A stretch of 64,000 nt of DNA, from the NCBI GenBank assembly GCA_021234155.1, contig JAJEKV010000430.1:143206-207205 (forward strand), written 5' to 3'. The translations under genes and the position numbers were made by a program. The stretch's first letter is position 1, and every line of letters begins with the position of its first letter. The notes below the pieces were generated by a model, which had not been told where the DNA came from, did not search any database, and saw only the letters and a program-made list of their open reading frames with translations. Below are positions 14,345-33,745 of the stretch, one piece after another. Origin of the DNA: Isoetes taiwanensis. Lineage: Eukaryota > Streptophyta > Lycopodiopsida > Isoetales > Isoetaceae.

Positions 14345-15490
14345 GAAAAATAACGTGGCTCAAACATGCCACGTGGGCTCCAACATGCCACTTAGGTGCC
14401 AACATGCCAAGGTGGCTCAAGCATGCCACCTAGGCACCAACATGCCACCTAGGCTCAAACATGTCAAGGTGGCTCAAATATGCCTTGCGGGCTCCTATAT
14501 GCCACCTATAGGCTCCAACATGCCACGTGGGCTCCAACATGCCAAACTAGGCTCCAGCGTGCCTCAAACATGCCACCTAGGCCCCAACATGACACCTGGG
14601 CTCAAACATGCCAAGGTGGCTCAAACATGCCACGTGGGCTTCATGCCACCTAGGCTCCAACATGTCAGGGTGGCTCAAACATGCCATGTGGGCTCCAACA
14701 CTGCTAAGTCAGCTCAAGCATCTTTGCCTAGGCACCAACATGCCACCAAGGCTCAAACATGCCTGGGTGGCTCAAACATGCCATCATGGGTCCAACATGC
14801 CACCTATGCCAAGGTGGCTCAAACATACCACTAGGCTCCAACATGCCACCTAGGCTCAAACATGCCAAGGTGTATGCCACGCCGAGGTCCAACATGCTAA
14901 GGTGGCTCAAAATGCCACGGGGCTCCTACATGCCACCTAGGCTCCAACATGTCGAGGGTGGCTCAAACATGCCCGTGGGCTCCAACATACCACCTAGGCT
15001 CCAACATGCCACCTAGGCTCAAACATACCAAGGTGGCTCAAACATGCCAATGCGTGTTCCAACATGTCACCTAGGCTCCAACATACCAAGGTGGCTCCAA
15101 CATGCCACCCTAGGCTCCAAGCATGCTAAGGTGGCTCAAATATGCCAAGGTGGCCCAAACATGCCTTGGGATCCAACATGCCACCTAGGATCAACATGCC
15201 ACCTAGGATCCAACATGCCACCTAGGATCCAACATGCCAAGGTGGCTCAAATATGCCATGTGGGCTCCAACATACCACCTAGGCTCCAACATGTCAAGGT
15301 GGCTCAAACATGCCACCTAGCCTCCAACATGTCACCTAGGCTCAAACCGCCAAGGTGGCTCAAACATTCCATGGCGCTCCAACATGCCACCTAGGCTCCA
15401 ACATGCCAAGGTGGCTCAAACCTCTTGCGTGGGCTCCAACATAACATCTGAAGCTTAAACATGCCAAGGTGGCTCAAACATGCCAAGGTT
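14345..15490. repeat. 19-bp minisatellite array, block 1
   Basis: Some 55-60 imperfect copies of GGCTCAAACATGCCACCTA and its variants (GGCTCCAACATGCCAAGGT). Three 19-bp units make 57 bp, so frames stay open as 19-residue repeats such as HAKVAQTCHLGSNMPPRLK. Frames of 80-180 codons occur on both strands. They are best read as satellite by-products because both strands are equally open and no start context stands out. Confidence 0.9.
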
Positions 15491-16019: not shown

Positions 16020-16490
16020 TCAACCATGCCACTAGGCTCTAAGCGAGAACACATGGCTCAAACATGCCACTAGGGTCATAAAAACCCTTTCAAATGATTT
16101 ATTTTTTGAAAGAATGAGATACAAGTTTGTATGTTTTTCTTATATGGTTGAAATGTTGTGCCCCTAGGCTCAAGCATGCCCTTGGCTCAAACATGCTAGA
16201 TTGGCTCATGCATGCCATATAGACTCAAATGTACCACATACTCGACTCAAACATGCCACCTAGGCTCAGCGACCCCTAGGGTCAAACATGTCCTAGGCTC
16301 AAACATGCCACATAGCCTCAAATACCTTGGCGCAAATGCCACATAGGCTCAAACATGCCACCTAGGCTCAAGCATTGCCCCTTGGTCAAACATGCCCTAG
16401 GCTCAAATATGCCACATAGGCTTAAACATGCCACCAGCATCAAACATGACACGTGGCTCTTAACATGCCCCTAGGCTCAAACATGCCCGC
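16020..16490. repeat. 19-bp minisatellite array, degenerate block 2
   Basis: Same monomer as block 1 but with shortened, more diverged units (CTCAAACATGCCACATAGG and similar), split by a 90-base AT-rich insert near 16080-16160. Isolated monomers continue near 16975-17050. Confidence 0.8.
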
Positions 16491-19240: not shown

Positions 19241-19992
19241 GGATTTTTTCGTTTTGGGGAGCAAAGAGCTGAAATCATCATGTTAGATAACTAGGTGGCC
19301 TTGATTTTAGGGGGTATAAAATGGCTTACAATGAAGAACTAATGGCCATTTTGATGTGGGATTTCTTGTAGATTTTGATGTATGCAATTGAGAATATCGG
19401 TGAAAGGAAGAGAAAGACAATCCAAATTTTCGATACTAGAATCAAAGGTCTTTTGGCGGATTCAAGCAATGTGCTTCTTGCTTGCTAATTTCGATGGAAG
19501 AAGGCAAATTTCTTCAAAAAAACCCCCTTCCAAGTTCATTCTATTGTTGAAAGCCTGATTTTTACAATCGGCATTATATTGTTTTGTATGTGAATAGTAT
19601 GGCTGGAATTTTGGGAAATTAAGTTAAATAAGAATAGGTTTTCCAATGTTTGTTCTATTTATGAGATAAGGTCAATAAGAATATGTTTTCTAATGGTTGA
19701 AAGGCTATTTGCAATTCTAAGTGCGGGAAAAATTAAATTTAAAACCAAACATAATATGGGCATTTCAAGACTTGAAAGAAAAAGTCTAGAACTAAATGTG
19801 AATGAAAGTCATTTAAATTTGTTTTAGTTTTATTACCTTCAAAGGCATTCAAACCATATCTCAAGAGAAAAATAACCTGGAACCATTTATTTTTATAAAC
19901 CACATCTATATATCAAGATTCTTCTTTATGAGAAACAATAGGCCTCAAGATGATCGGACAAAATCATGATACATGGTAGGGCGTTGTTTTTT
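19241..19992. other. No gene seen
   Basis: AT-rich spacer with short frames only. Confidence 0.45.
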
Positions 19993-21210
19993 TGGCTGGG
20001 GTTGACCATCCATCCGCCCCTCATGTGCATTTTCAAAGTGTTAGATAAGAACCGACAAGACTCTAGCCAGGTTGTTTTAATCCCAAATCACCATCGGGGA
20101 AACAACATGTTGCATCTCATTTTATTATGAACCAGGAAGGTTGCATCTCCCTTCAGGATCTAAATTGCGTTACATTTAAAAAGGAATATGGCGACACATA
20201 TAATTCCTACCATGTGAACCCCCAAAGCGAGAGCCAAGCCAACACTTGCGACTCTTTAAAAAAGGCTAAATGTAACACCATTGCCCTAAGGTGTCGGACC
20301 ATGTCATTCATTACGCAGTGACCGACCATAAGCCTAGCCCACTATGGTTTTTTGGAAGCCCCCCACTTTCGGGGATCCTGAAAAAACTTTCCCTCTGGAC
20401 CCGTTATATGGTGCTGGAGTGTCATATCATAGCCTCAATAGCCTGGTGGGCTCCTATGCGAGCCGCAACTAATAGGAACTAAGGGTTCTACTCTAGGAGC
20501 ATACTACATATGGCTCTGGGTCTCTACCCCCTTCCCAATACAAGAGGAGCAAACAAGATCAACCAACATCCATACTCATCACATCATGAGAATAATCATA
20601 AGAAGAACATCTTAACCTAATCATACAAATCTAACTAATAGTTAGGGTTCCTTGATTAGGGTTCAAGAAGTTCAATATGGGTTCTAGGATGGCTCTACTC
20701 TAGATACAAAATACTAGCATATCACGGAATGCTAATTTCCAGATGAGCTATCACAACTACTATCCTACATACCTGCTCTGAGCTCTCCCCCTCGAGATCA
20801 TTATTGCCTCCATGGTCACCGACTCACGAGATGCCACCTACTCCAAGAGCGTGTCACCGAGTCTATGCCACAACAAGCGATGTTGAAAGCGGGGTTGGAG
20901 CGGTTTTGGCGATAGGTGAGTCTCACAGGTGCTAGGGCTGGAAAGAGGTCTAGGGTTAGGGTTTATGCCTATATGAGTTAGGTCCACCTAGGATGCCGCG
21001 TGGTACCAATGGTGAGTCTGTGTGGCGGTGCCCCAATAGGTTAAGCCCCGTGGATAATGGCTTAACCTATGGTTGGCTAAGTTATGAGAATAACTTAGCC
21101 ATGCCCCTAGTGCCACAATCTATGGTATACAAGGCTATGAAGATAGACTTGTATGGTGGCCGGATCGAGGAATATCGTATTTATGGCGTATATTCCACGG
21201 GCCAATCACA
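19993..21210 (-). mobile_element. Family-A LTR fragment (5' part in element orientation)
   Basis: Collinear with about 31425-32643 of the complete LTR. It starts at GGTTGACCATCCATCCGCCC and ends CCAATCACA where the intact copy has CCGTCACA. It lies on the pol 3' side of the family-A element, where a 3' LTR is expected. Its distal quarter is missing here and a similar part lies at 12697-13525, but the two fragments overlap by about 400 bases of LTR, so this is not a simple split by one insertion. Confidence 0.75.
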
Positions 21211-22105: not shown

Positions 22106-23420
22106 TCAAACTCCTTCATAAACTTCTGGGTATTGCTTCTCCAAGTCTTGCTTCAATACCCATGTCAGCGTCTTCCGCGGGTAAGTGCTTCCCTTAACCA
22201 AATATTGGAGGAATTGAGACCTCTAGTCTTCTTGAATGACTTATCAAGAAGCAATTCAGGCACTATTTCTACTTGCTCCTCCATCATTTCCAACAAAGGT
22301 TGGAGTATCCAAAACCTCCTCGGGGTTAGGATTGTGCCTTTTAATAAACTTACGTGGAAGACCTTGTGAACCTTGAGATGGGTTGGAAGATCCAACTTGT
22401 AGGCTTGAGAGCCCTCTCTCCAAAATCTTGAGCGGACCAGCCCACCTAGGGGCAAGCTTCTTGCAGCTCCCAATCGACTTGGCTTGCTTCACCTTTATCT
22501 TCAACCCGGGCTTATCGCCTACCTTGAATTCTCTTACGGTCACGGTAGTATGCGGCTACACTCTTCTGCCCGACTTCTTCGCCAATAAATAACCCTTACT
22601 TCTTCCACTAGCTGCTGCATATCCCCTAACATCTGCTGGGATACTTCTACCTTGGACGAGGATTGTGCGGTGTCAGGGGTTAAAGCAGCGGTGCCGTAAT
22701 TTACCATGAAAGGAGACATCGCGAGATGACAGCGGCAGCCTTTGTTGTAAAGCGAATTCCACCAAGTGGATGTACTCATCCCACTTGGGCGCTTATTCCA
22801 CACATAGTTCGAGCATGTCTTCAATGATCCGATTCGTCCTTCCGTGCGGCCCATCGTTTGGGGATGATATGCGTGCTCATGGAGAGCTTGATGCGAATGG
22901 TGCTGAAGAGGTCCTGCCAAAAGGCACTCATAAACTTGGAATCCCTATCGGATATTATCTCCGAGGCATGCCATGGAGTCTGAAAATCTCCCTTACAAAT
23001 AACTTGGCGATTATCTAATGCGATTGTCGATAGTCTTGCAAGGCACAAAATGTGCCATCTTAGATAACTTATCTCGACAACCATCAATGCATCCTTGCCT
23101 CGAAGAGTTCTAGGGAGACCTGTGATGAAATCCATGCTTATGACCTCCCACTTTGCATTTGGCACCCCAATGGCTCAAGAGCACACGGAATCGAAGTTGC
23201 TCCGCTTTGGTATGGCTGACATCTTGGCAATCCAGAATATATGCAGCTATCGCCTCTTCATTCTGGCGGAAGTAGCTACTTGAATCTTGAAAATAGGTCT
23301 TCATGAAGCCCGGCATGCCACCGCTATTGAATTTTGTTATGTGTGTCATGAAGAATTAGCTTCCTTACCCACGATGATTCGGGCACACACAACTTATGCT
23401 TGTGATACAACAGGTTGCCT
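22106..23420 (-). pseudogene. pol: Family-A Ty3/gypsy integrase and chromodomain
   Basis: Read downward from 23349: a zinc-binding remnant (GFMKTYFQDSSSYF), then the catalytic core starting NAKWEVISMDFITGLPR, with the second catalytic Asp in SDRDSKFMSAFWQDLF and the region of the catalytic Glu after YHPQT. Then come SPFMVNYG and the integrase C-terminus (REFKVGDK, CKKLAPRWAGPLKI, HLKVHKVFHVSLLK). Last is a chromodomain-type tail (EIVPELLLDKSFKKTR, then TWVLKQDLEKQYPEVYEGV and a stop at 22106). At least six frameshifts separate these parts. Integrase inserts the cDNA copy and the chromodomain guides insertion, so the element is a chromovirus. This copy is dead as read. Confidence 0.85.
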
Positions 23421-25060
23421 TCCTTCTTATAATGCTTGAAGGCTTCCGGCTCCTTATCTGTTCGGCTTCCTTGGAAAGGCTTTCCCATACCTCCTTGAAG
23501 TCCACATCGTTGGCAGGACTCCTCAATCTTCTTGCCAAACTCACTTTCGAAAGAGTGGAAATCGCATTACAATCGTCCTTGTACGAAATGGTCTCACGGA
23601 GGGCATCTGCTACAACATTAAGCTTACGGACTTATATAAAATATCAAAATCATACTCCTCAAGAATTCCATCCACCTCCTTTGTCTTAAGTTGAGGGTGG
23701 CTGGGTGAAAAGATCTTGAAGGCTCGGTGATCGGTATCCAGCTGGAAACTTCCTTCCGGCCGGATAATGCCTCCATATCCTCAATGCCACGACAATGGCT
23801 AGCAGCTCCTGATCATGGGTTGGGTAGCGTTGCTCTGGCGTCGTTCATCTTCTTCGAGTCGTGGCGACTACCCTTCCTTCTTGCATCAAGGCCCTTTGTT
23901 GCTATCTTGCTTGCATCTGTTGCTACCAACTTATCTTTACTCGGATCCGGGAGAACAAGCACTGGTGCTGTTGTTAGAGCCTCTTTAAGCTTCTCAAAAA
24001 AGCTTGGACTTTCTCTAACCAATGGCTAGTCAATCCTTAATCTTCTTGGCCTTAGTGAGGTCGGAGCAAGGGGGCGCCCGCCGCAAAAGTCCTTGGCGAA
24101 CTTTACGTAATATCCCGCCAGCAGAAAGCTTCTTACTTACGCCCACATTCCTTGGAGCTGGCCAATCAACTATTGCCTCAATCTTAGATGGATGCGTGGA
24201 GATTCCCTGGGATGTTACTACATGCCCCAAGTACTACTCCACTTTCGACATTTGCAAAGTGGCATAGAGAGCTTCCCATACAACCGATGGCGTCTCAACT
24301 TCTCCAACACTTTCACGAGATGCTGACAATGCTCCTCAAGGGACTTGCTGTAGATTAGAATGTCGTCGAAGAAGACAATAACAAACTCATCCAAGAAGTC
24401 TCACGAAGATGTCGTTCATGAGCGCATAAGCGTTGCTGGAGCATTCGATAGTCCAAAGGGCATTCTTGTAAACTCAAAATGACCATAGCGTTACGGCGGT
24501 CTTATGGATATCCTCTTCTTTTATTCTTATCGATGGTATCACGACCTCAAATCAATTTTAGAATACCTTTGCTCCTTGTGGCTGGTCCATTAGATCATCG
24601 CCCTTGGCAATGCATACTTGTTCTTTATCGATGCGCTTATTAAGCTGGCGATAGTCTATCACATTCTTAAGCTCCCATCTTTCTTCTTCACAAAGAGTAT
24701 AGGTGCTCAGAAGGAGACACACTTGCTCTTATAAATCAAGCTCGAGCAATTCTGAATTTTGTTTCTTGAGCTCAATCAATTCTAGGGTGCTCATTCTATA
24801 TGGCCTTCTTGGTAGGCTTGCCAGCATCCGGAGCCAATGTGATCTCACATTCCACACCCCTATAAGGTGGCGTTTGCTTGGGATTTCCTCCGGAAATACA
24901 TCCTTGAACTCTGAAATAAGCCTTGCTATGCACGGGCAACCGATTTCCCTTTGGGTCACTTCCATCCTGCTTGCACGGCTCAGCGATTCCATCCTCAAGA
25001 TGTAATCCACCTTATTCCTTTCTATACTCTTCCTTAGCTGCTTCAAAGAAATACACTTTG
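23421..25060 (-). pseudogene. pol: Family-A Ty3/gypsy reverse transcriptase and RNase H
   Basis: From 25046 downward: the protease-RT junction (LISEFKDVFPEEIPS), a palm segment (YGHFEFTRMPFGLSNAPAT near 24470-24420), and the catalytic box [12 protein letters not shown] with its two aspartates at 24362-24373. Then come [25 protein letters not shown], and the RNase H start (APVLVLPDPSKDKLVATDAS). The usual Tyr of the YxDD box is Phe. Several frameshifts are visible. The protein copies element RNA into DNA. Motif order fixes the minus-strand orientation and agrees with the primer site at 31023. Confidence 0.85.
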
Positions 25061-26500
25061 CATAGGAGAATCTAGCTTCTTACCTTTCACTATCAACTTG
25101 CCCGTGCGGTGCCGTCATGGTGACTTCATTCGGTGCCAATCAATCATGGCTTTGGTGGCTTCAAAAATTCCATCCCCACTATCGGATCATATCTTCCGAT
25201 GTCCATGACTTACGCTCCCATCCCCACTTAGCCCCACTAAGGTCTATGTCAAAGGTGATCCTCCTCCCCTTAGTGTGCGAATGGGCCGTTTGCCATAGCC
25301 TCTTGGCCTTGGCTTAGACTTCAATACCTTGTTCTTCATTAGAGCAGACCAATCTAGGGAGATGCAAAATTATGAGAGCTACGTATCTATGAGGACTACA
25401 TAAGGATTACTATCTATGATCCCATCGCCCGGCGATGGCGGTTAGTGATTCTCTATATCACTGTCTCAATGTTTGCACATATGTGGCACTCACCATCTAT
25501 GAAGTCACGGCAGCCCTCCTGGCGTTAGTGGGTAAGTCTAATTAAAACTACGTTGGGGAGTCCCAATCAAAGAGTTACGCCAAAATTTGCATGGCGAATG
25601 GACAATCATGTGTTGATTGCCTTTTGGCTGGAAGCACACGAAGCATAACTTTTTTCTCAATGCATTCACGTCTCTTTTCCTTGTTGTTGTCTAGGAGGCG
25701 GCTTGGCCTTACGATGCGATTACGTGGCTTACTACGGTCCCCAAAAGCTTTGTTCTGACCCTTACCTTCTTCTTGACTCCACGATGGTGTAGCGCTGGCG
25801 ATTATACCTAATATTGCCCACGATCTTTAGTGAACTCTTACCCCGAAGGTTGTTGTTTCTCTGGCTGGAGTTGCTGGTGCCTCTTTAAACTTAACTTTTA
25901 TCTTACGGCACATTACAGTGACTTGAGGTTGATTGCTCTAACAAGCCTCTTGATATTCTTTTCAACCCCTCAATGTAAGTATCCACGGCTTGCCTCTCAC
26001 GAGACTCGGGGAACATGCGACTGAGCCTCATAAATTCTTCGGTATATGCTTAGCCAGCGATAAGCTACCGATTCAACTGTGTAAAAGCTGGCGAATCGTC
26101 TACTAGTATGAGACCTTGGCACATAGTGTGCTGGGGAAAGCTTTGCGAAGGTCTTAAACCTACAATTGTTCCTCTTCGGCTTGTTGGACTTAGCATATCC
26201 CTTCCACCGGATCCTTGCGGTCCAATAAGGTTAGGCTGTAACAACTTTCCCCTATGTCCTTGTCTTTCATACCAGGTATGAGTTGCCAAATTCTTCCATT
26301 TCATCAAGCCATGCTTCAGCCTCCATGCGATCTGTCTTTCCACGAGGCGGCGGTAGAGCTTCCTTGTCTTCCATACATTGCTCATAGCACTATCCACCTT
26401 TTACGATAGTCATCGTCTTTCTTGCTCTTTTCCTTGCTTTTAGGTGTGCGGTATTTGTCGGACCCGGTTATCCTCTTGGAAGAGCTATCGATGAGCTGGA
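25061..26500 (-). pseudogene. gag: Family-A gag with degenerate zinc knuckle
   Basis: The segments EEFMRLSRMFPESRERQAVD then TYIEGLKR (about 26030-25950), and a Met-Glu-Ala-Glu-Ala-Trp-Leu-Asp-Glu-Met start of the gag domain near 26310, match the retrotransposon gag family. Near 25680-25600 a zinc-knuckle remnant reads LCFVCFQP then HMI..C. The frame is broken several times. The strand below 25600 should hold protease, but I could not pick out a D-T/S-G motif. Confidence 0.65.
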
Positions 26501-29391: not shown

Positions 29392-30484
29392 TTACAAAAT
29401 TTGAGGGCCTAAGGCCTCTCTCTCTGCAATCCTTCGTGCTAAGTGAATATCCTTGGGCATAAAGGGTAACTCTCTTAGCATGGATAGTATGAGAGGTTCC
29501 CTTCCTCGAAGAGCTGGACCAGCTCTGCTGAAGCCTCTTGCGAGCGGGTCATTAGAGGGTAACCCTATAATCGGTCGGAGCTGCTACAAAACCTCTCTAA
29601 GGAGGCTCGAAGGAGCCTTCCTTATCGGAGATGCGTGCACATCACGGAAGTGCGAATCTCCCTAAACACCGGGTGTATGTGCTATTCGCCCGTGGTGAAC
29701 CCTCTTGGGTTTTCGGTCTCGGTGGGGTGGCTTGGGCTGGTTCTTCTTCCCCCGCCGCCCCACCGCGGCAACTGGCGCACCTCTGGCGGCAATACCACTC
29801 ATTGTACCTCGTCCAACGACGAAGGTACTCCTTGTATGCCACCATCTTCCGCTTAAACTTCGGTCTCTTTGGAGCTTGAATGCCTCCCCTACCTTTTGCT
29901 TCTTCACCACCTTAGGTGGTTCCGCCATTTAGGGTAGGGTGGCTAGCGTTGGGTCCCCCTCGCTCTTCTTCCTCCCTCGTCTCAGGTAAGCCCTTTGTTG
30001 GTGCTCCTCCTCCGTGCGGGCCTCTTCTATAAGCGGCCAGTCCGGGGAGGCGTCGTTCCTCCTCTTGGTCAGCCTCTCCTGCTCCCTCAGCTCCCTCTCC
30101 AGCTCAGCTTCTTCTGGCTGACCCCTCTCCTCACGGCCACTCTTTGACTTTTTCCTTCCCCTTCTTTTTTTTGAAGGGCCCGGCCGTCGATCACGGTGGT
30201 GGTGCTGCTCTTCCACCTGTTCTTCAACCTGTTCCTCCACCTCGGTGTCAGGGGCCAGTGTGAGACTCATCGTTCTCTGTGTGCCTCCCAGATGGTGGCG
30301 CTCTTTGGGGCTCTCCTCGGCATCATGATGCGTTATCGCCCCGGCTGCTGCTGCTGGGGGAAGCTCCTCTTCCCCTTTCTTGGGTGGGAGGTGCTCAGGG
30401 GATCTTCTTCACATGTAGCCCCTGCTAGCCATGGAAGGGGTAGGTCTTGGTCGAGCTTCTGTAGGTTTGTTTGGTGCGTGCCAT
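29392..30484 (-). CDS. Histone H3-like protein with a very long tail, inside the family-A element (frameshifted)
   Basis: The minus-strand frame begins MARTKQTYRSSTKTY at 30484, the hallmark start of histone H3 (MARTKQTxRxST). After about 250 codons of acidic and Lys/Arg-rich linker (EEQVEEQVEEQHHH; KKRRGRKKSKSGRE; RELREQERLTKRR), the C-terminal part resembles the H3 histone fold in order. FREIR (alpha-N) is near 29665. IRKAP...LLREV (start of alpha-1) is near 29620. SQEASAELVQLFEEGNL (alpha-2) lies at about 29555-29495. IHAKRVTL (loop 2) then MPKDIHLARRIAERE (alpha-3) lies at about 29485-29420, followed by a stop. At least four frame changes interrupt it, several at homopolymers. Typical H3 is about 135 residues; this would be about 360. 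It starts about 540 bases after the primer site of the LTR. Candidates are a retroelement-captured H3, a divergent centromeric-type H3, or an H3 pseudogene hit by insertions. The fold assignment is firm at both ends and weaker in the middle. Confidence 0.7.
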
Positions 30485-31022: not shown

Positions 31023-31034
31023 GCTCTGATACCA
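31023..31034 (-). promoter_or_regulatory. Primer binding site (initiator tRNA-Met type)
   Basis: TGGTATCAGAGC on the minus strand, two bases inside the LTR end at 31037. This is the standard plant primer site for minus-strand DNA synthesis and proves that the element runs right to left. Confidence 0.9.
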
Positions 31035-31036
31035 TT

Positions 31037-32643
31037 TGTGACGCTCCTCGCTAAGCGTCACGGTACGCCGTACACTTTCGGCAGAAATCCCCATCGGCTC
31101 GGCAACCGCGATGGGCCCTTCGTCTACCCGCTTTCGACGGGTGACTCTTAGTGTGGGAAGGGGACTGAAGGTGTCTTGCGGCGCCCTTCCCTATGGGCTC
31201 CTATAGGCAGGCGATAACCACGTCGAGAACTAGCATCAACATATACAAATACTACCTCGAAGGGTAGTGCATCACTCATAAACCAAGGCAAAGATGATAA
31301 TCACGAACCATAAAACATGAGAGCTCCTACCCGGCTCGGACTTCGTGGGAGGATGGTAGAGGCTAGGCCTCAAGATAGAAGCATCGAGTCATGGCAATGG
31401 CGAGGCTGGCATAGAACAATGGCTAGGGTTGACCACTCCATCCGCCCCTCCCGTGCATACTTTGCAAATGGGCTAGATCAGGCTCGACAAGACTCTAGCC
31501 TTCCGGATCGCAATCCCATGGCATCACCCATCTGGGACTACTCAGTTGCATCTCCCCGGAAGGGTTGCATCTCCCCTTCCGGGATCTAGAGGTGCCGTGG
31601 GCGGCTAGAGAATCGTGGCGACACACGCATTCGTACCAGTGAACCCCCAAAGCGAGCCAAGCCAACACTTGCAGCTCTCGAGGTGTGGCAACACCATTGC
31701 CCGGGGAGGTGTCGGACCCATGCTGGAAGCCCACCGCAGTGACCCGACCATAAGCCTAGCCCACTATGGGATCCCCGAAGCCCCCCACTCGGCGGGGATC
31801 CTCCCTCCACTTTCCCTCTAGCCTGTTATATGGTGCTGAGTCATATCATAGCCTCAATAGCCTGGTGGGCTCCTATGCACAGAGCCGCAACTAATAGGAA
31901 CTAAAGGGGTCTACTCTAGGAGCATACTACATATGGCTCTAGGTCTCTACCCCTTCCCAATACAAGAGGAGCAAACAAGATCAACCAACATCCATACTCA
32001 TCACATCATGAGAATAATCATAAGAAGAACATCTTAACCTAATCATACAAATCTAACTAATAGTTAGGGTTCCTTGATTAGGGTTCAAGAAGTTCAATAT
32101 GGGTTCTAGGATGGCTCTACTCTAGATACAAAATACTAGCATATCACGGAATGCTAATTTCGGATGAGCTATCACAACTACTATCCTACATACACGCTCT
32201 GAAGCTCTCCCTCCGGATCCGTGTGCCTCCATGGTCTCGACTCACGAGATGCCGCTCCTACTCCAAGAGCGAGTCTACCTGGCTTTGGGGCTCTTTTGAT
32301 CTATGCCTGACAAGCGATGTTGAAATGGGGTTTCGAACGAGTAGGTGAGTCTCTGGGTGCTAGGGCTAGAAAGAGGTCTAGGGTTAGGGTTTATGCCTAT
32401 ATGAGTTAGGTCCACCTAGGATGCCACGTGGTACCAATCGGGTGAGTCCTGTGTGGCGGTGCCCCAATAGGTTAAGGCCACGTGGATAATGGCTTAACCT
32501 ATGGTTGGCTAAGTTATGAGAATAACTTAGCCATGCCCCCTAGTGCCACAATCTATGGTATACAAGGCTATGAAGATAGACTTGTATGGTGACGGATCCA
32601 GGAATATACGTATTTATGGCGTATATTCCCCTGGACCGTCACA
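31037..32643 (-). mobile_element. Complete 5' LTR of family A (1607 bp)
   Basis: Bounded by perfect inverted 7-mers TGTGACG...CGTCACA and followed, in element orientation, by the primer site. Two partial copies lie at 12697-13525 and 19993-21210. A short internal CTCCCCGGAAGGGTTGCATCTCCCC duplication is present near 31550. On the far side (32646) the sequence resumes as the minisatellite-bearing repeat, so the element inserted into that repeat. Small frames on both strands are shadows. Confidence 0.9.
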
Positions 32644-32929: not shown

Positions 32930-33745
32930 CAACATGCCACCTAGGCTTCAACATGCCACCTAGGCTAAAACATGCCAAGGTGGCTCAAACATGCCACCTA
33001 GGCTCCAACATACCACCTACGCTCAAACATGCCAAGCTGGCTCAAACATGCCACATGGGCTCCAACATGCCACCTAGGCTCCAACATGCCAAGGTGGCTC
33101 AAACATGCCATGTCGGCTCCAAGATGCCACCTAGGCTCCATCATGTCAAGGTGGCTCAAACATGGCAAGGTGGTCAAACATGCCACGTGGTTCAACATGC
33201 CACCTAGGCTCCAACATGCAAGGTGGCTCCAACATGCCACCTATGCTCAAATATGCCAAGGTGGGTCAAACATGCCGCAGCGAGGGCTCCAACATGCCAC
33301 CTAGGCTCAAACATGCCAAGGTGGCTCACAACATGCCACCCGGGGCTCCAACATGCCAAGTTGGCTCCAACATGCCACCTAGGCTCAAACATGCCAAGGT
33401 GGCTAAAACATGCCAAGGTGGCTCAAACATGGCAAGATGGCTCAAACATGCCACGTGGCTCCAACATGCCACCTAGGCTCCAACATGCAAGGTGGCCCAA
33501 GCATGCCACTTAGGCTCCAATATGCCACCTAGGATAAAACATGCCAAGGTGGCTGAAACATACCACGCGGGCTCCAACATGCCAAGGTGGCTCAAACATG
33601 CCATCTAGGCTCCAACATGCCACCTAGGCTCCAGCGTGCCACCTAGGCTTCAACATGCGAAGGTGGCTCAAACATGCCATACGGGCTCCAACATGCCACC
33701 TAGGTTTCAACATGGCAAAGTGGCTCAAACATGCCACGCGGGCTA
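32930..33745. repeat. 19-bp minisatellite array, block 3
   Basis: About 40 units of the same CATGCCACCTAGGCTC(A/C)AA family as 14345-15490, better conserved than block 2. Overlapping 70-104 codon frames on both strands come from the 57-bp periodicity. Confidence 0.9.

Follow-up and report, generated by a model that had tools for sequence, protein, structure and literature searches.

A histone H3-like gene in two forms, carried by Ty3/gypsy retrotransposons of the quillwort Isoetes taiwanensis

Ty3/gypsy retrotransposons of the quillwort Isoetes taiwanensis carry a histone H3-like open reading frame (ORF) that is linked to the elements, comes in two protein forms and is open in some copies, and the purifying selection on its H3 core is about equal to that on gag and reverse transcriptase (RT). 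This selection, which keeps the ORF intact-looking, suggests that the elements use the H3 protein on host chromatin. We consider it probable that the ORF encodes a replacement histone through which a domain or tail of the element is placed on chromatin, although we infer both its incorporation and its effect.

The window, a 64,000-nucleotide stretch of contig JAJEKV010000430.1, carries on its minus strand a Ty3/gypsy element that is old and broken. We call the H3-like ORF of these elements ORF-A and refer to the form found in the window as type II; the other form, type I, is divided by its N-terminus into subgroups Ia, Ib and Ic. The parts of the window element are as follows.

31037..32643, minus strand: 5' LTR, with TGTGACGG...CGTCACA termini
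31023..31034, minus strand: primer binding site TGGTATCAGAGC, which we take to be a tRNA-Met complement, following the 5' LTR
29392..30484, minus strand: H3-like ORF (type II ORF-A), frameshifted and broken by stops; intact relatives are L035, L044 and L048
29428..29669, minus strand: histone-fold part of that ORF (REIR ... LARRI), from tblastn with the L035 ORF
27869..28624, minus strand: remnant of ORF-B, a protein of no known kind, homologous to type I ORF-B by similarity and hhalign
25883..26397, minus strand: gag remnant, from tblastn with the L019/L027 gag (best E 1e-21)
22415..25277, minus strand: protease, RT, RNase H and integrase remnants, from tblastn with the L029 pol (E 1e-115); the protease is called solely from similarity to gag-PR frames, the other domains through the Pfam domains of L029
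22124..22419, minus strand: remnant of the integrase C-terminal and chromodomain region, from tblastn with the L031 integrase-chromodomain frame, up to residue 355 of 388
19939..21210, minus strand: 3' LTR with its far end missing, from LTR-LTR comparison

The H3 ORF, gag and pol of this element are all fragmented into short frames. Its two LTRs are 82.9% identical including gaps (114 mismatches in 1273 columns), and the insertion is therefore old; near-identical seed repeats had suggested a young element, an idea that was dropped after the full LTR comparison. Longer pieces of the 5' LTR are 68-76% identical to the LTRs of the type I copies L009 and L027, and a single 59-column piece is 90% identical to the LTR of L026. 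Degenerate 19-bp (57-bp) minisatellite arrays resembling CAACATGCCACCTAGGCTC occupy window positions 14353-15408, 16165-16487 and 32930-33737, the last of which starts about 290 bp outside the 5' LTR. A second, split pol lies at 48421-47391 and 38569-37532 on the minus strand, its longer pieces sharing 64-83% protein identity with type I elements; when three type I ORF-A proteins were searched against the window by tblastn, no H3 ORF belonging to this pol came up at E 1e-3. A relict at 13302-12877 (minus strand) is related to type I LTRs at 71-74% identity.

The first-pass annotation had reported H3 signatures in the minus-strand frame. They are present and in the right order, with the start MARTKQTYRSSTKTY at 30484 followed by FREIR, LFEEGNL, IHAKRVTL and MPKDIHLARRI, but they are spread across different reading frames. 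A scan of five stop-to-stop frames of the window gave no match to the Pfam histone model, so that the window copy by itself is weak evidence for an H3. When the 1093-bp stretch was compared with the genome, the best 40 of 1354 candidates were scored and all of them match: the window itself and 39 other copies at 77-87% identity, with 34 of the 40 matches running end to end (33 of 39 without the window). The intact relative L035 matches the Pfam Histone model at E 3.6e-28 and a solved histone H3 at E 2.5e-31, the latter across residues 254-364 of its ORF. A chance resemblance to H3 is ruled out by these 39 relatives together with the two L035 matches. The long tail that had been put at about 250 residues is borne out, with about 277 residues preceding the histone fold in L035. 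The ORF also lies between primer site and gag, as proposed, with the refinement that ORF-B (28624-27869) separates it from gag; the primer site is upstream as claimed, at a measured distance of 550 bp before the ATG (31034-31023) where about 540 bp had been given. This order up to gag is seen in the window copy, the remaining type II loci fetched ending before gag.

We read 26 type II copies, namely the window and the 25 best-scoring full-length copies among the 39 others. The frame is unbroken in three of them (L035, L044 and L048, with 365-369 residues) and broken in 23. Every copy begins with MARTKQT (26/26); the start codon is present by choice of sample, since the 25 fetched copies are full-length matches, and codon differences within MARTKQT amount to 0.07, 0.063 and 0.256 at positions 1, 2 and 3, respectively (25 copies, L035 excluded). 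In L034-L038 the primer site lies 564-593 bp upstream of the ATG. The six type II loci with upstream sequence, the window among them, have a TTAAATA box and CT-rich sequence about 90-120 bp upstream of the ATG; as the entire upstream stretch is alike among copies, this region only leaves room for a possible internal promoter.

The type I form emerged from a Pfam histone search of the whole genome, in which the best 150 of 8704 candidates were scored, all above the cut-off. The top 15 places have match positions 2-122, like ordinary H3, and the eight fetched from among them all encode an ordinary H3 core. The other 135 are non-host-like, with open frames of at least 400 residues in 36 and shorter ones in 99; these more than 100 histone-fold matches are likely to be element ORFs and not an H3 gene family. 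We fetched 20 of the 135, selected mainly for long frames. Type I ORF-A consists of an N-terminal part of about 300 residues without known relatives and an H3 core that is 84-89% identical to host H3 (Pfam Histone E 3.2e-42 in L018 and 3.3e-42 in L025). A conserved N-domain precedes the core in all 20 loci, ORF-B lies behind it in 19 (in L021 about 3 kb farther downstream), and a third ORF, ORF-C, is found in 16. Gag is present within 10 kb in 17 of the 20 loci, and 14 have a primer site with one mismatch or none. At L012:5360-5632 the H3 ORF directly adjoins gag, with ORF-B and ORF-C not found there. The conserved part of ORF-C begins right after TTGCAG in nine of nine copies (L009, L011, L013, L020, L022 and L024-L027), in which no conserved ATG was noticed at its start; it may be a spliced exon.

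The gag of L018 is recognized by Pfam as Ty3_capsid/Retrotrans_gag, and a Ty3-type gag and the order RT-RNase H-integrase are present. In two of the four downstream pieces pol can be read, and its frames contain RVT_1, RNase H, H2C2, Tf2-1 SH3 and a near-cut-off rve; the rve scores of 30.2 and 31.9 bits fall just below the cut-off of 32.6, and H2C2 and RT_RNaseH are far above theirs. The sole readable integrase end among these four pieces, in L031, carries a chromodomain (PF00385, residues 309-357, E 6.3e-10). The pol is of chromovirus type. LTR identities including gaps are 90.7, 93.0 and 95.3% in three type I copies, and a fourth has no LTR match within the stretch fetched.

Hhalign comparisons show homology between the N-domain of Ia/Ib and that of Ic (probability 100) and between type I and type II ORF-B (probability 93.5, E 2.3e-7), but none between the type II tail and the type I N-domain. 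A search of 5.8 billion proteins, in which matches require shared five-residue words, returned no relatives of L018 residues 1-300 (the N-domain) or of L026 ORF-B at E<=1, and the best matches of the N-domain to Pfam and PDB have E 0.16 and 0.36. With the whole type I ORF-A as query, ordinary H3 dominates the result: of at least 120 proteins listed, 13 were inspected, and 12 of these have a canonical core while one was unreadable by pattern. In the H3-core tree type I forms one group (support 96/95, bootstrap not settled), and type II is a single row on a very long branch of unsure placement. In RT-RNase H, the Ib sequence L029 (from the L026 copy) is separated from the Ia copies L012, L031 and L014 by a dS of 0.74-0.92, a divergence no greater than that among Ia copies, whereas Ia-Ib comparisons of the H3 ORF and ORF-B are saturated; from this disparity it seems that Ia and Ib elements have exchanged leader modules and gag-pol.

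For the H3 core of type I, the Nei-Gojobori method gives dN/dS of 0.033 in Ia (36 pairs, dS 0.88) and 0.015 in Ib (6 pairs, dS 0.64). These values are biased downwards because the sample lies within the best 150 places by histone score and was mostly selected for long frames, a choice that reduces dN. When more of these loci are compared, over 82 codons, the ratio is 0.031 for Ia (91 pairs, 3 saturated) and 0.011 for Ib (10 pairs). The N-domain, on which the loci were not ranked, still has ratios of 0.09 in Ia (22 of 36 pairs usable, the others saturated) and 0.18 in Ib (6 pairs), and Ia-Ib pairs have saturated synonymous sites throughout the N-domain, linker and core; both observations argue for a real constraint. 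The linker ratios are 0.19 in Ia (35 of 36 pairs) and 0.11 in Ib (6 pairs). In the same elements, dN/dS is 0.021 for the capsid core (19 of 21 pairs usable), 0.032-0.086 for RT-RNase H (6 pairs) and 0.085-0.51 for ORF-B (4 of 10 pairs usable). Among the intact type II copies (3 pairs) the ratio is 0.02 in the fold and 0.11 in the tail; across all 26 type II copies, most of them broken, it is 0.30 and 0.38.

The two forms depart from host H3 in different ways. We compared the core with position lists that we take to represent the H3-H3 bundle and the DNA contacts. In type I, all ten listed bundle positions and most of the listed DNA contacts are unchanged. Ia, Ib and Ic share core changes at 86, 87, 89, 102 (3/5 in Ib), 105, 107 and 124 (12/14 in Ia); others are confined to subgroups, at 60 in Ia (13/14) and Ib, at 64 in Ia, at 62 and 121 in Ib, and at 54, 59 and 125 in Ic. 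In a by-eye alignment of 12 type I tails, proline replaces K9 before STGGK or a variant of it in all 12, with a shorter K27 region. In type II, the fold shares 66-67% identity with host H3. In L035 it retains R49, R52, R63, R69, R72, R83, K115, R116, T118 and K122 and is altered at K56, K79, F84-L90 and elsewhere; with K56, K79, F84 and other surface residues lost, the type II protein may form no ordinary nucleosomes. Its tail begins with ARTKQT and continues with about 270 unrelated residues, and neither type has the conserved short H3 tail with K4, K9, K27 and K36.

These results bear on the two origins proposed in the first-pass annotation, a captured H3 carried by a retroelement or a divergent centromeric-type H3 overrun by one. 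The former is supported: the ORF turns up repeatedly together with the element, exists in two forms and is under selection. Taken alone, the window copy could have the appearance of a host gene, canonical or centromeric, hit by an element insertion, but the same arrangement across many copies makes this scarcely credible. The type II fold is 52% identical to Arabidopsis CENH3 and so nearer to host H3, and loop 1 has the H3 length in representative Ia, Ib and II cores and lacks the two-residue insertion of Arabidopsis CENH3, in a comparison with one Arabidopsis CENH3. Recurrence with the element and the H3-length loop 1 lead us to reject a single host pseudogene or an overrun CENH3; judged from these sequences, the element H3 is no overrun host gene, nor is it a CENH3 on the criterion of loop 1.

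A functionless host H3 copied along by the element, as in fungal hAT elements, would be a passive hitchhiker, and the 23 broken copies among the 26 type II copies read would fit this, as would the documented capture of H3 by a transposable element followed by inactivation of copies (PMC6710886). We regard it as very unlikely, given a type I core dN/dS of 0.015-0.033 at dS 0.6-0.9 and a value of 0.02 in intact type II copies, all in the range of gag and RT. If the protein is used, it might act outside nucleosomes as a mimic or decoy that soaks up histone chaperones or the readers and writers of the H3 tail, or packages element cDNA. The ARTKQT at the extreme N-terminus of type II, kept as MARTKQT in every copy read despite third-position variation, and the divergent type II fold (67% identity to the host core) are consistent with this, but the core is the most constrained part and a tail decoy would not need it; we find such a role doubtful. 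Slightly less doubtful, and still only a tentative alternative, is that the H3 protein sits in or on chromatin and its N-terminal part recruits the integration complex, supplementing the chromodomain in the choice of site. The N-domain found in all 20 type I loci and the chromodomain after the integrase in L031 would suit this, as chromodomains are reported to steer integration to heterochromatin through histone marks (PMC9289625 and PMC2864245); against it, protein, Pfam and PDB searches found no relative of the N-domain.

In the replacement-histone reading that we prefer, a chromovirus-type Ty3/gypsy lineage would encode its own H3, in a long ORF that comes first after the primer site and ahead of gag. 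The protein would be made from the element RNA, which could be translated directly because ORF-A is its first long ORF. Because the H3 core is preserved, the product would be expected to pair with host H4 through the intact H3 fold and to meet host chaperones and DNA. It would then be deposited in host or element nucleosomes, and chromatin would thereby display the element-specific N-terminal part in type I or, in type II, the long charged tail that begins with ARTKQT. The likeliest use would be to hold element DNA in silencing-resistant chromatin, because the 12 type I tails have proline at the place of K9 and a shortened K27 region. We would rank protection from K9-based silencing highest, with tethering of integration a close second and titration of host factors after that. 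One can also speculate, with rather low confidence, that this lineage builds its own kind of nucleosome, in which a type I H3 without K9 could not be marked by the host H3K9 silencing enzymes and would show an element domain on each nucleosome it entered, so that element DNA would be protected or tagged in the plant genome; type II might then be a second, independent capture whose K4 tail was kept as a signal of active chromatin.

Chromatin control usually acts on mobile elements. The retroelement lineage described here appears to have a core histone of its own, under selection about as strict as that on its capsid and polymerase. This makes it directly testable whether an element can escape silencing or direct its integration by changing the composition of nucleosomes.

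The quillwort elements share with chromoviruses gag, RT, RNase H, H2C2, the integrase core, Tf2-1 SH3 and, in L031, the chromodomain, and differ from them in three additional frames between primer site and gag (H3 ORF, ORF-B and ORF-C). Ogre/Tat elements likewise have an extra ORF before gag, together with a second RNase H; to our knowledge they have no chromodomain, unlike L031, and no H3 in the extra ORF. Wasp bracovirus is another parasitic genome with a core histone, and it encodes an H4 with an extended N-terminal tail; it differs in that the histone is H4 and not H3 and the system is an insect virus. In the open PMC papers searched we saw no LTR retrotransposon that encodes a histone, and a term search of the main text of two Isoetes genome papers (PMC8566536, PMC10541799) found 'histone' 0 times. 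Orchid Ty3/gypsy elements with an AlkB-type demethylase ORF are similar as plant Ty3/gypsy elements with an additional host-derived ORF, although that ORF encodes an RNA demethylase and not a histone, and both mentions of 'histone' in the main text are unrelated to a histone domain in an element (PMC9289625). Fungal elements offer a parallel in cargo, since there too an H3-like gene travels on a mobile element and is multiplied by it: H3L of Pyrenophora tritici-repentis has tail insertions, an adjoining ORF of unknown function and ESTs (PMC3538342), and hAT elements carry H3 in Pseudocercospora and relatives (PMC6710886). These fungal carriers are DNA transposons bounded by terminal inverted repeats; they number tens to hundreds of copies, possibly subject to drift or to inactivation by RIP. 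In place of the hAT transposase and terminal inverted repeats of that class we found LTRs and gag-pol, and the window has no inverted-repeat pairs of at least 60 nt. Compared with these fungal systems, the quillwort elements are plant LTR retrotransposons in which the H3 stands behind a large N-terminal part and is under purifying selection.
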